Below, in pieces: positions 13,103-18,023 of a stretch of 64,000 bases of DNA. The notes under the pieces are model-generated. The model made no database searches. It saw only the letters and a list, made by a program, of their open reading frames with translations, and had not been told where the DNA came from. Origin of the DNA: Methanoregulaceae archaeon (GTDB lineage Archaea; Halobacteriota; Methanomicrobia; Methanomicrobiales; Methanospirillaceae); assembly GCA_015660965.1 (NCBI GenBank), contig JACTVG010000001.1, forward strand, positions 62,001 to 126,000, given 5' to 3'. Both the position numbers and the translations under genes were made by a program. The stretch's first letter is position 1. Each line of letters starts with the position of its first letter.

Positions 13103-14290
13103 ATGGTCGCACGTGAAGTTTGTAAAGATATTTTTTGGGTAGGTGCTTTAGATTGGGATCGCAGACTTTTTGATGAACTTATCCCACTTCCTAATGGCAC
13201 AAGTTATAACGCATACTTAATTAAAGGAAGTAAAAAAACCGCTCTCATTGATACTGTTGATCCGACGAAGGAATACGAACTAATCAGTAATCTTGTCAAG
13301 ATTGGTATTGAACAAATCGATTATGTGATTATGAACCATGCCGAGCAGGATCATTCAGGATCACTTCCAATGATCCTCGAATTCTTTCCAGATGCAGTTG
13401 TTGTTGCAAACGAGAAATGTAAGGATTTTCTTGTTGCTCTGCTTCATGTAGATTCAAATAAATTCAAAGTTATCGGTGATCGCGATACTCTTTCATTAGG
13501 AGACCGAACTTTGGAGTTCCTGATTACACCTTGGACTCACTGGCCCGAAACACAGCTCACATTTTTGCAGGAAGATAGGATCCTATTCCCTTGTGACCTA
13601 TTCGGATCCCATATCGCGACAAGTGATTTGTTCATAAAAGATGAACGAACGATATACATTTCTGCAAAACGATATTATGCCGAAATTATGATGCCGTTCC
13701 GAATCACTATTCGGGGCTATCTTGATAAAGTTCGGGCGTTAGATCCTACAATGATTGCTCCAAGTCATGGTTCAATCTACCAAAACCCATCGTTTATTCT
13801 TGATTCATATTTCGATTGGACTTCAGATTCAGTTAAAAATGAGGTAGTAATCCCATACGTCTCAATGCATGGTAGTACATTAAAAATGGTCGAATACTTC
13901 ACTGATGCATTACTTTCACGCGGTATCACTGTAAAGCCATTTAATCTCTCGAAAACGGATGTAGGAGAACTTGCGATGAGTCTTGTCGATGCTGCAACGG
14001 TTGTTATCGCGACTCCTACGGTTCTGTTTGGACCGCATCCGCAGGTAGTTTATGCAACATATCTTGCCAATCTTCTCAAACCCAAAATAAAGTTCGTTTC
14101 AGTTATCGGGTCATATGGGTGGGGAGGTAAATGTGTTGACGTCATTACCAAAATGCTTGACCACGTAAAGGTTGATGTTCTCGAACCGGTTATCGTAAAC
14201 GGGCTTCCAGATGAGAAAGCTTTTCGCGGATTAGATCGACTCGCTGATGATATCTTAAAGAAACACAAAGAGATTAAAATCGTGGAATAG
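13103..14290 (+). CDS. fprA: FprA-type diiron flavoprotein (F420H2 oxidase / A-type flavoprotein)
   Basis: 395-residue protein that reduces O2 to water with electrons from F420H2 in methanogens. The metallo-beta-lactamase half (1-245) has the full diiron set: H79, E81, D83 and H84 in NHAEQDHSG, H146 in HWPET, D165 in CDLFGSH and H222 in SHGS. A flavodoxin domain with an FMN loop (SMHGSTLKMVEYF) follows from about residue 254. Start ATG 13103 is preceded by TTAGGTA. It follows rubredoxin directly and precedes a broken superoxide reductase, so this was once a complete oxygen-detoxification cluster. FprA homologues can also reduce NO; sequence does not decide. Confidence 0.95.
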   Translation: MVAREVCKDIFWVGALDWDRRLFDELIPLPNGTSYNAYLIKGSKKTALIDTVDPTKEYELISNLVKIGIEQIDYVIMNHAEQDHSGSLPMILEFFPDAVVVANEKCKDFLVALLHVDSNKFKVIGDRDTLSLGDRTLEFLITPWTHWPETQLTFLQEDRILFPCDLFGSHIATSDLFIKDERTIYISAKRYYAEIMMPFRITIRGYLDKVRALDPTMIAPSHGSIYQNPSFILDSYFDWTSDSVKNEVVIPYVSMHGSTLKMVEYFTDALLSRGITVKPFNLSKTDVGELAMSLVDAATVVIATPTVLFGPHPQVVYATYLANLLKPKIKFVSVIGSYGWGGKCVDVITKMLDHVKVDVLEPVIVNGLPDEKAFRGLDRLADDILKKHKEIKIVE

Positions 14291-14552: not shown

Positions 14553-15392
14553 TTGCCTACTAACATGTTTACGATGAAGCAGATTGCCCTCTATGGTAAA
14601 GGAGGGATCGGGAAATCGACAACGGCTGCAAATCTCTCTGCTGCGCTTTCGCTCCAGGGTTTTGATGTTCTCCAGATCGGGTGTGATCCGAAACGGGATA
14701 GCACAAGAATGTTAATGCACGGTAGTTTTATTCCGACAGTAATGGATCTGGTTCGCGAACGGGGAGACGGAAAGATAACGCTCGATGAAATAGTATATAC
14801 TGGATTTAATGGCGTGCGATGCGTAGAAGCAGGTGGTCCTGAACCTGGCGTTGGATGTGCCGGACGAGGTATAATAGCTACCTTCCAACTTTTAGAGAAG
14901 TTCGGTGCGCTAACGGGCGATGTAATCTTATATGATGTTTTGGGTGATGTTGTCTGTGGAGGTTTTGCAATGCCGATGCGAGAGGGATATGCTCAGGAGA
15001 TCTATCTTATTACGTCTGGTGAGTTGATGTCACTTTATGCGGCAAATAACATCTGCAAGGCAATAAAACGTCTCTCGCAACGATCAAAGAGCACATGTCG
15101 ACTTGCGGGAGTGATTTGTAATGCAAAAAATATGCCTAGTGAAAAGGAACTGGTTAGTGAATTTTCCCGCCGTATCAATAGCACACTAGTACAGTATATC
15201 CCAAGAGATCGCAAGATACAATTGGCTGAGATCCATAAGCAAACAGTTGTTGAGTATTCGCCTAATTCTACTCAAGCAGGTCTCTATCGAGAACTATCCT
15301 CATATGTCATGACGAACACCAATTTTACGATCCCCACACCCATTGAAATTGATGCTCTCGAAGCCCTCGCCCTTGAATTCATGCAGATTTGA
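14553..15392 (+). CDS. Nitrogenase-like iron protein (NifH/CfbC/BchL family)
   Basis: 279-residue ATP-dependent electron donor. It has the P-loop GKGGIGKST (15-23), C102 in GVGCAGRG and C135 in [12 protein letters not shown], which bridge the shared [4Fe-4S] cluster of the homodimer, and the switch aspartates of GCDPKRDST. All features needed for an active iron protein are present. The frame begins at TTG 14553, with AGGAG 12 bases upstream; ATG at 14565 or 14574 would give the canonical [11 protein letters not shown] start but lies far from it. The next gene overlaps by about 40 bases. It must feed electrons to the two component-1-like proteins that follow. True NifH for nitrogen fixation is unlikely given their sequences. 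Confidence 0.9.
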
Positions 15393-16398
15393 GGGTTGTA
15401 CCCTAACAGGTGCATTATCGGTAACTACCTCAATCAGAGAGGGTATCACTGTTATTCATGGACCTTCGGGATGTGCACATCATAACTTCTCGCTTCTACA
15501 TTCAACAAATCTTGATCATAATCGGATCGCGGTACCACATATAGTCTCGAGTGGACTTCTTGACTCTGAAATTGTATTTGGTGGTGAGGAAGCTCTGGAA
15601 CGTGCAATTGAATCTGCGATTTCTCAGTCTCCAAAATCTGTTTTTGTATTGTCGACATGCATAACTGAAACAATTGGAGATGATGTTATTGCGGTTTGCG
15701 GGAAACACTGGGATGTACCGGTCATACCAATTCCTACTGCCGGATTCCTTGGTGGTTCATTCCAGATGGGTGTGAATAACGCGTTAAAAACAATAGCGGG
15801 TTTAATTGGTGTATACTCAAATAATGGCAGTGTCAATATTATTGGCGAAAAAAACCTCGAATATGAGGTTGAAGAGAATTATACCGAGATAAAACGGTTA
15901 CTTTCACTATTAGATCTTCAGGTTAATGTACGGTTCATTCATAACATTTCAACAACTGACATTGAGAAGATAGGGAGGGCATCCCTCAATATTTTGCGTG
16001 ATGCTGAGTTAGTAAGTGTTGGTAAACAACTTTTCCAACAGTTTGGCACTCCATTCATTGAATCATTCCCAACAGGTTTTTCTGGAACTATCACATTTCT
16101 GAATCAAATTGCTGAGATTTACGGGCTACAAGGTCAGGAAACTATTACCTATGAGGAATCCCTTCATGAGTCTATCCTTGATGATTTTAGAGACATTACC
16201 GGATCTTCTATTGCTGTTGATCACTCGTTCATGATAAGTCCAGATTATGCATTCTTTCATGAGGTTGTCAAAGATCTTCATATAAAAATTAAACCGGATG
16301 GCTGCCTTGTTCCGATTCCAATATCACCGCCTATTGGTACAATGGGAATAAAGCGGATGCTCCACCGCTGGAGGCGAGCTATCCATGCCCAAATGTGA
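15352..16398 (+). CDS. Nitrogenase-like component 1, D-type subunit
   Basis: 348-residue protein of the oxidoreductase/nitrogenase component 1 family. Cysteines C16 (or C11) in SCRFEGC, C41 in HGPSGCAHH and C103 in LSTCITE match the three positions that hold the P-cluster or [4Fe-4S] cluster in NifD, ChlN and CfbD. No cysteine corresponds to the NifD ligand of FeMo-cofactor, and the chain is about 130 residues shorter than NifD, so it does not fix nitrogen. ATG 15352 lies inside the end of the iron-protein gene; a TTG nine bases earlier is possible. The next subunit overlaps by 14 bases. It could be CfbD for coenzyme F430, but the presence of a second, different subunit argues for another substrate. 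Confidence 0.85.
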
Positions 16399-17512
16399 GA
16401 ACCCGCTTTGGCCATGTGCAATGACAGGAGCAACAGCGTGTCTTGCTGGATTTGAAGGAATCACAGTGGTCATTCACGGATCTAGCGGTTGTTATTATTA
16501 TCCGACCACACTCCTCCACGTACCTCTTCATGGCACATTCATTCTAGAGAATGAAGTCATTTTTGGTTCCGAAGAGAGACTTCATGAAGTGATTGAGGAG
16601 CTTCAAGGAAAGGGTAAACGTATCGCTATTGTGACATCATGTGTGCCAGCTATCCTTGGTGAAGACATTCGATCAATGCTCGATTCTAATGATATTATCC
16701 TTGTTGATAGTCCCGGGTTTTCTGGAAATTTTGAGATTGGATACCACACAGCACTTTCGATATTAGAGCCGGCAATTGATTCCGATGCCGTAGGGATTAA
16801 TATTGACGGAGTAAGCCTCTTTGACCCCTTTCATCGCGGAAATGTGCAAGAAGTTGTCAGACTCCTCACCCAAGCTTGTGTTCCGGCTGGTACGGTATTA
16901 TGCTTTGACCATATCGATAAACTTAAACACTGTTCCCCCTTTACATTAGGGGTTGATGGGGATCTTGCAAGCGGTCTTGGTAATTATCTTGGGAATACAT
17001 TGGGATTTCATGCAATCAATGAAACGTTCAATCGGATCGGTCAGGTAATTGAAGATAGTAATGTCGAATCCGTAATAAATGAAAATTCTAGACAGGAGGA
17101 GCGAGTAATACAGGTATGTGACAAGTTCTTGCGCCGGTTTGATCCTCCTTCTGTTGTAATCTTTGCCAGCTTTTCCATCGGAGCATTTGTCGCTAACTTG
17201 TTGGACAAATATCTTGACGCCGAAATTGTTTGCATAGGAAGTCGTACTGACCAGAAATACGATCTCCCCTACCAAGTTCAAAGAGTAGATGGACTTTCCG
17301 ATGTAAAGAGACTAATTGACTATTACACTCCTGACCTTGTTGTGGGGTCATCTTTCGAAAGATCTGTAAAAGGAGGAGCGGCTTTTGTTGGAATAACTCC
17401 ACCACTACGTGGTACGGTCAGACTTGCTTCACGACCACTTGCTGGTATTGAGGGGTCGCTTTTTTTAATTGAAGACGTTCTCAACGCTTGCATGGATCGA
17501 CAATCTGCATAA
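16385..17512 (+). CDS. Nitrogenase-like component 1, K-type subunit
   Basis: 375-residue second component-1 protein, a divergent paralogue of its neighbour. Cluster-type cysteines are C11 in PLWPCAMTGA, C36 in HGSSGCYYYP and C86 in VTSCVPA. Its gene begins inside the end of the D-type gene, so H, D and K-like chains are made together and probably give an alpha-beta component 1 as in BchNB rather than the CfbD homodimer. The middle region (FSGNFEIGYHTAL) matches the family; there is no FeMo-cofactor ligand. The reaction is likely a low-potential two-electron reduction of an unknown, perhaps tetrapyrrole-like, substrate. Confidence 0.82.
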   Translation: MPKCENPLWPCAMTGATACLAGFEGITVVIHGSSGCYYYPTTLLHVPLHGTFILENEVIFGSEERLHEVIEELQGKGKRIAIVTSCVPAILGEDIRSMLDSNDIILVDSPGFSGNFEIGYHTALSILEPAIDSDAVGINIDGVSLFDPFHRGNVQEVVRLLTQACVPAGTVLCFDHIDKLKHCSPFTLGVDGDLASGLGNYLGNTLGFHAINETFNRIGQVIEDSNVESVINENSRQEERVIQVCDKFLRRFDPPSVVIFASFSIGAFVANLLDKYLDAEIVCIGSRTDQKYDLPYQVQRVDGLSDVKRLIDYYTPDLVVGSSFERSVKGGAAFVGITPPLRGTVRLASRPLAGIEGSLFLIEDVLNACMDRQSA

Positions 17513-17609: not shown

Positions 17610-18023
17610 ATGATGAAAAAATCAGGATACTTCCATAAATCGGGGTGTGTTGCATACGATTCCGAAGGTATTCCCCACGAGGTCATAGAACTGCATATTC
17701 AGGGTGAACGTTATGCGATTCGGTTAACAGACCTTGTCCGGGCAATTGCAGGAAAGGTCCGTGTGCAAGTTGAAATCTTAACACACAATTGGAAGTATTA
17801 TCTTGGTACCGTATCTGGCTTAGCTCAAGTTTCGTTGTCTGGAAAAGCACTGAACATCGATTTGTTTAATATCGGCGACTTCACGGTCTCGCTCAACTCC
17901 TTGCGTTCAATCATATATGGAAAGGAGCGATATGCTGTTATCGTGAAGATTCCGGAAATCCCCTATCAAACACGTCTCAAGAAACTCGGGTATGGCCAAC
18001 GGAATCTCGGTGCAATCGCCTAA
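17610..18023 (+). CDS. Conserved-looking hypothetical protein downstream of the nitrogenase-like genes
   Basis: 137 residues, unrecognised. It appears beta-rich (VIELHIQGERYAIRLTDLV; YYLGTVSGLAQVSLSGKAL; INIGDFTVSLNSLRSIIYG) with no cysteine cluster, membrane segment or nucleotide motif. AAGGTGG precedes the ATG pair at 17610/17613. It follows the K-type gene after 97 bases that contain a TATA-like CATTAAATACC near 17558, so it probably has its own promoter. Whether it works with the reductase is unknown. Confidence 0.65.
   Translation: MMKKSGYFHKSGCVAYDSEGIPHEVIELHIQGERYAIRLTDLVRAIAGKVRVQVEILTHNWKYYLGTVSGLAQVSLSGKALNIDLFNIGDFTVSLNSLRSIIYGKERYAVIVKIPEIPYQTRLKKLGYGQRNLGAIA

Follow-up and report, generated by a model that had tools for sequence, protein, structure and literature searches.

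Three overlapping genes in an archaeal genome encode a nitrogenase-type iron (Fe) protein, here called H, and two component-1 proteins, D and K. Which acceptor does this Fe protein serve, and what kind of compound could the D–K pair reduce? To our knowledge, nitrogenase relatives with known jobs either have an Fe protein gene of their own or draw on the shared NifH encoded in nif clusters. The genes described here belong to the Methanomicrobiales, an order of major methane producers whose cells yield much of the biogenic methane. Our preferred reading, to which we assign a probability of roughly one half, is that CfbC is part of a branched system here, in which H serves CfbD as well as a second acceptor, D–K, that is probably a tetrapyrrole reductase.

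Gene models of the locus

The window, that is, the whole stretch of 64,000 nucleotides that was analysed, comes from an archaeal genome of 2.43 Mb in 170 contigs, whose closest named relatives among 84,980 species scanned belong to Methanoregula. Three open reading frames (ORFs) were verified at positions 14553–17512. The first encodes H (14574..15392, + strand), a NifH-type Fe protein; its ORF opens with a TTG at 14553, but we preferred the ATG at 14574 as start since most homologues begin there. It is followed by D (15352..16398, +), an alpha-type component-1 protein of about 350 aa resembling NifD and NifE, with an ATG at 15352 as likely start, and by K (16385..17512, +; likely start 16385), a beta-type component-1 protein of 375 aa resembling NifK and NifN. 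Given this start of D, H and D overlap by 41 nt, and D and K by 14 nt, as expected from an earlier note on this DNA, which had described overlapping component-1 genes after H. The same note had called H an iron protein with a P-loop and both cluster cysteines, and these are indeed there: the P-loop reads GKGGIGKST, and the two motifs with the cluster cysteines are present. Pfam searches assigned PF00142 to H (353 bits) and PF00148 to D (183 bits) and, in two stretches, to K (112 bits), each far over the cut-off. All three genes are under purifying selection, with non-synonymous divergence far below synonymous divergence, the latter being saturated or nearly so.

Upstream of H lies a gene for a flavodiiron protein of the FprA type with ODP and flavodoxin domains (13103..14290, +), which is kept in other genomes with or without D–K. 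A conserved 137-aa protein (17610..18023, +) is encoded after K, and directly after H where D–K has been lost; it had no NCBIfam or Pfam matches.

H is the CfbC of the Methanomicrobiales

H scored 410.9 bits against the NCBIfam model NF033200 (F430_CfbC), passing its cut-off of 402, and remained under the cut-off of the nifH model TIGR01287. The window genome carries a cfbA-E-D-B cluster on contig 42, which includes a CfbD of 503.9 bits (TIGR03282, cut-off 268.4) and has no cfbC inside. A separate cfbCD set, which the earlier note had proposed to look for, was thus found in part: cfbD is present in this cluster, cfbC is missing there, and H appears to serve in its place.

We then considered how many Fe proteins these archaea have. 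A PF00142 search of 46 relatives (match threshold E ≤ 1e-30) returned one match each in 14 one- or two-contig genomes with D and K (G139, G158, G189, G046, G052, G056, G085, G088, G096, G103, G120, G121, G124 and G043). The sole NifH-type gene of these nearly closed genomes directly precedes D or lies close by. Exactly one full-length CfbD, encoded elsewhere, was present in all 21 genomes tested. Since CfbD needs an Fe protein and the closed relatives have a single NifH, H must be the one that serves CfbD. We conclude from these sequence comparisons that H is the CfbC of the Methanomicrobiales and not an Fe protein private to D–K. The idea of the earlier note that H is part of a three-gene enzyme of its own has to be given up, as H is the only NifH of the closed relatives and stays where D–K is lost.

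In the Fe-protein tree, the H proteins of the Methanomicrobiales formed one clade (100/98), apart from NifH and from the CfbC of other orders, which is encoded next to cfbD; the deep order of CfbC, NifH and H is not settled by this tree. The window genome may, however, encode another H. Contig 155 ends (L014:11909-11993) within a further H-like gene, of which the opening 28 codons are present, alike in 26 of 28 residues and 76% of bases. The fragment has a similar upstream sequence (TAATATAAATTGCC) and lies beyond a run of genes of the arsenic-resistance type. It may represent a second copy of cfbC or a stray contig.

D and K lie outside the named families

As judged from profile scores and phylogeny, D and K belong to none of the named curated families. 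The best NCBIfam match of D was NifE, at 105.5 bits against a cut-off of 505.1, and that of K was CfbD, at 43.1 bits against the TIGR03282 cut-off of 268.4; D reached 40.9 bits with the same CfbD model. The cut-offs of BchN, BchB, BchY and BchZ were not reached either (D with BchB, 73 bits; cut-off 490).

Because the long Bch branches joined each other in a first tree, the Bch rows were left out of the careful one. Every D and every K fell within its own clade in this tree. The D clade (100/99) had as its sister group the D domains of H–D fusion proteins (100/99), and D together with the fusion D domains was placed near NifD/NifE (98/89). K formed a clade of its own (100/100) without a resolved sister. 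The best tree kept both D and K apart from CfbD, itself at 100. In approximately unbiased (AU) tests, a grouping of K with K', the partner of the fusion protein, was not rejected (p 0.296), nor was a joint clade with CfbD for D (p 0.08) or for K (p 0.145).

CfbD, D and K have the fold of the superfamily in common, and also two cluster cysteines, which are all that CfbD has of the three. They differ in that CfbD is homomeric, whereas D–K consists of two different chains with three cysteines each; CfbD is also encoded elsewhere in the same genome, and both D and K score far under its cut-off. The possibility that K is a recognised CfbD paralogue was rejected, as it lies 225 bits under the cut-off and coexists with CfbD, although a deep kinship with CfbD is possible (AU p 0.145). 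That D and K are not CfbD agrees with the missed cut-offs and the separate CfbD, with the reservation that the AU test leaves a joint clade unrejected. The earlier note had considered that the system might be F430 synthesis only, if D grouped within CfbD and K were its known paralogue. The position of D outside CfbD in the best tree and the low CfbD score of K speak against this for the pair; for H, on the other hand, a part in F430 synthesis is what we find.

Cluster ligands and predicted fold

Alignments of 37 D and 37 K proteins showed that the cluster cysteines, Cys19, Cys44 and Cys106 of D and Cys11, Cys36 and Cys86 of K, are invariant in 37 genomes. Those of D share alignment columns with Cys62, Cys88 and Cys154 of NifD, and those of K with Cys70, Cys95 and Cys153 of NifK, so that the 3+3 P-cluster cysteines of NifDK are present in D–K. 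The ligands of the FeMo-cofactor (FeMoco) are absent. The column of Cys275 is occupied in D by Asp or Glu (14 of 15 proteins) or by Ser (1 of 15), preceded by Arg in 15 of 15, and the region of nitrogenase His442 is a gap. These results are in agreement with the earlier description of three cluster-type cysteines per component-1 chain and no FeMo-cofactor ligand.

The PF00148 match in D spans only positions 1–265 of the 399-position profile. Beyond residue 281, an AlphaFold2 (AF2) model of D (pLDDT 87) shows, by DSSP, no more than a short strand and two helices. At this place the model of K (pLDDT 92) contains a full Rossmann domain; it has a three-domain fold and superimposes on NifK (4wes_B) with a TM-score of 0.83. 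For D, the best structural partners gave TM-scores of about 0.7, with NifEN as the first Foldseek match. According to its model, D is an alpha-type subunit without domain III, the C-terminal Rossmann domain, which in nitrogenase helps to enclose FeMoco. The two component-1 chains are indeed different, as had been noted earlier, one being of the alpha and the other of the beta sequence class. The combination of P-cluster cysteines with neither the cofactor ligand nor domain III bears on the origin of nitrogenase from tetrapyrrole reductases.

Distribution, gene order and natural loss

K was detected (E ≤ 1e-59) in 205 of 232 Methanomicrobiales genomes, representing 35 of 40 genera, and in 126 of the 135 high-quality genomes of the order. 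In a sample of 393 genomes from the phylum, K scored at least 438 bits within the order, the best match elsewhere had 118 bits and no K was found outside the Methanomicrobiales. The 80 named loci kept from the scan of 84,980 species all came from Methanomicrobiales or from unplaced Euryarchaeota metagenome-assembled genomes. In an order that contributes so much methane, the Fe protein that serves F430 synthesis is genetically tied to a probable second acceptor, detected in those 205 genomes and never studied.

The gene order within the Methanomicrobiales, a check that the earlier note had suggested, proved to be conserved: among 37 loci, H and D are neighbours in 36, and D and K in 31. The six D–K exceptions are of the Methanoculleus type (L060, L061, L062, L074, L075 and L086), with K located 0.6–5 kb from D and sometimes on the opposite strand. 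In each of these loci, either D or K adjoins a gene for a universal-stress protein. The neighbours of cfbC include FprA, a desulfoferrodoxin-like protein, a kinase, a TrkH-like protein, leucine genes and a NusA-like protein, and they are the same where D–K is lost. By function, the conserved neighbours of D–K are oxygen-defence, leucine and translation genes; no tetrapyrrole biosynthesis gene was found among them, and the neighbours of D–K, including the universal-stress protein of the Methanoculleus-type loci, gave no hint of a substrate. The 137-aa protein is conserved beside cfbC in several genera, with D–K present or lost.

Two genera (g4 and g13) keep the run from FprA through cfbC and the 137-aa protein to the NusA-like gene, with D and K missing. 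Their genomes have one CfbC and one CfbD. The H proteins of g4 and g13 form one clade inside the order (94/89), which fits a single loss of D–K. As this lineage keeps CfbC and its neighbours without D–K, the pair is dispensable for F430 itself, and so clean a loss in one lineage provides a ready comparison. D and K are also present in some closed relatives in which nif genes are absent.

A related fusion system among corrinoid genes

The nearest relative of D is the D domain of a NifH–NifD fusion protein of 728–766 aa, which is encoded together with K' (support 100/99). We examined loci of this type at L261:2530-13382, L260:4199-16698, L262:1925-18957, L263:7266-16330, L264:1529-12499, L265:4229-12367 and L259:646-16467; the hosts are Methanospirillum-type, Methanolacinia-type and other Methanomicrobiales genomes, and Methanosarcinaceae genomes. 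The cluster comprises CbiZ, a ChlI-like AAA protein, an AAA/VWA (ChlD-like) protein, FecB/BtuF, FecCD, an ABC ATPase, the fusion protein and K'. The FecB/BtuF, FecCD and ABC-ATPase genes precede the fusion gene in complete loci, while CbiZ, the AAA genes and CobN and/or CbiK occur in most of the loci, the gene set varying from one to another. From this gene content, the cluster looks like a system for import or handling of corrinoids or metallo-tetrapyrroles with a nitrogenase-like reductase of its own. Since a relative of D is encoded here among CbiZ, CobN, CbiK and BtuCD-type genes, a tetrapyrrole is suggested as the substrate class of D–K, this gene context being the one independent, though indirect, pointer to it.

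The FeMoco ligand is absent from both D and the fusion protein. They differ in architecture, as the fusion carries a fused Fe protein and a full-length D, unlike the separate H and shortened D of the window, and K' has only one of the three cluster cysteines left in the aligned sequences, whereas K of the window has three. The fusion system has been mentioned before, as a nifH–nifE fusion (Dos Santos 2012; PMC3464626).

Proposed function of D–K

In the mechanism that we propose, H would act as the ATP-dependent Fe protein CfbC and reduce the CfbD encoded elsewhere. D and K would assemble into a second acceptor made of both chains, probably a heterotetramer of composition D2K2, to which this Fe protein also docks. 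The [4Fe-4S] cluster of H would hand electrons on to a P-cluster-like site, for which D and K would supply three cysteines each, and this site would pass them to an organic substrate sitting where nitrogenase holds FeMoco, in a site with no metal cofactor. The likeliest substrate would be a modified Ni or Co tetrapyrrole, with reduction of ring bonds in a step outside the needs of the F430 skeleton. The pairing of D with K, their docking to H, the direction of electron flow and the substrate class are steps that we infer. Sharing of the Fe protein between CfbD and D–K is well supported; nevertheless, NifH is promiscuous, and a single Fe protein is for this reason no proof that it reduces D–K.

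As the cofactor ligand and domain III are missing in D, an L- or M-cluster is disfavoured and an organic substrate in the vacated site is favoured. Enzymes of the superfamily without FeMoco, namely DPOR, COR and CfbCD, reduce tetrapyrroles (PMC7242693). This family precedent, together with the gene context of the fusion system, makes a tetrapyrrole the best guess, and the substrate of D–K is perhaps of this kind. That D–K is an order-wide, hitherto overlooked reductase sharing CfbC and performing a new tetrapyrrole reduction, with a shortened alpha subunit and a metal-cofactor-free site that receives electrons through a relay of the P-cluster type, is quite conceivable, and we put it forward tentatively. 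If D–K is a CfbC-driven reductase, these methanogens would carry out an unmapped reduction, probably of a tetrapyrrole. The earlier note had proposed an alpha-beta reductase for a tetrapyrrole or another compound; this is still the best reading for D–K and agrees with the fusion gene context, with the correction that H is not private to it. Nitrogen fixation by D–K, which that note had dismissed, was likewise rejected here, as the cofactor ligands are missing and closed relatives with D and K lack nif genes.

DPOR (BchL–BchN–BchB), with a heteromeric component 1, no cofactor cluster and tetrapyrrole chemistry, is the parallel that we propose. It shows low sequence similarity to D–K, its Bch rows being on long branches in the quick tree, and BchN/B hold their cluster with three Cys plus an Asp (at the second position of BchB), compared with the 3+3 Cys of D–K, which in this respect is closer to nitrogenase than to DPOR. 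With NifDK, D–K has these 3+3 cysteines in common, but not the ligands Cys275 and His442.

An alternative is that D–K is an accessory of F430 synthesis without a substrate of its own, which holds or pre-reduces Ni-sirohydrochlorin a,c-diamide or regulates CfbC. The tight linkage to cfbC across the order, the H common to the D–K locus and CfbD, and the unrejected joint clade of K and CfbD (AU p 0.145) would all fit such a role. We nonetheless consider it unlikely, because the F430 pathway runs without the pair in g4 and g13, with their one CfbC and one CfbD, and because other orders make F430 with cfbCD alone, cfbD lying beside cfbC. Corrin synthesis offers another candidate role, that of the missing cobalt-precorrin-6A reductase (CbiJ). 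None of 52 Methanomicrobiales genomes tested had CbiJ (PF02571), CbiC was found in 40 of 40 tested, and the sister H–D fusion sits in a corrinoid gene cluster. However, one genome (G130) has CbiC and lacks CbiJ, D–K and the fusion, and Haloferax and Sulfolobus control genomes also have CbiC without CbiJ, which makes another, general archaeal solution likely; D–K as a replacement of CbiJ was accordingly rejected as very improbable. Whatever its identity, the pattern of CbiJ and CbiC across the order implies that the corrin pathway there uses another reductase.

Profile and fold both place D closest to NifE, which is its top NCBIfam score, with NifEN as first structural match, and N2 reduction is expected neither of NifEN nor of D–K. 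D–K could accordingly be imagined as a scaffold of the NifEN kind, on which [8Fe-9S-C] L-clusters are completed or from which they are delivered, for example to the activation complex of methyl-coenzyme M reductase (MCR), in which L-clusters are found, NifB being essential in methanogens (PMC12176620). We find this improbable: D lacks domain III and has Asp, Glu or Ser in place of the Cys ligand of the L/M-cluster that is present in NifE, K differs from NifEN in its three cluster cysteines, and MCR activation is needed by all methanogens, whereas D–K was found only in the Methanomicrobiales and is absent from one of their lineages. Reduction of a small sulfur or other compound, comparable to methylthio-alkane reductase (Mar) or the isethionate system NflHDK, appears just as doubtful. 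Such nitrogenase-like enzymes for sulfur compounds do exist (PMC12552129, PMC11423573), and the 3+3 P-cluster cysteines resemble those of nitrogenase and Mar; yet D has lost the [8Fe-9S-C] ligand and the domain that closes over FeMoco, no sulfur-assimilation gene was found near D–K, and the pair is near-universal in an order that has no such known common trait.

Relation to earlier reports

Dos Santos 2012 (PMC3464626) described NflD, now CfbD, and also, as yellow clades in Fig. 4 of that work, nitrogenase-like pairs of archaea that have 3+3 Cys but lack the FeMoco ligand. These pairs have the same ligand pattern as D–K, although the text names neither the Methanomicrobiales D/K nor a tie to CfbC. 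In the passages searched of recent structural and phylogenetic studies, one of the MCR activation complex (PMC12176620) and one of methylthio-alkane reductase (PMC12552129), D–K is not mentioned. Our literature search, with few subscription papers in reach, returned no reports of D–K or of its linkage to CfbC.

Other nitrogenase-like genes

We also came across a NifD-like protein of about 390–430 aa that is encoded by a single gene and has all three P-cluster cysteines together with the FeMoco-type Cys (L095:5927-7117, L096:6128-7348 and L101:6798-8078, all on the − strand, as well as L216, L217 and L221). The gene adjoins a cfbA-E-D-B cluster in L095 and a NifH-like ORF in L221. Its ligand set would possibly suit a nitrogenase-like homomer that has a site for an L-cluster. 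Finally, a second nitrogenase-like operon, with the order D-K-H and the FeMoco-type Cys in its D protein, was found on contig 70 of the window genome (L012:6764-10378) and in L099, L100 and L218; in L012, it is followed by a methyltransferase gene.
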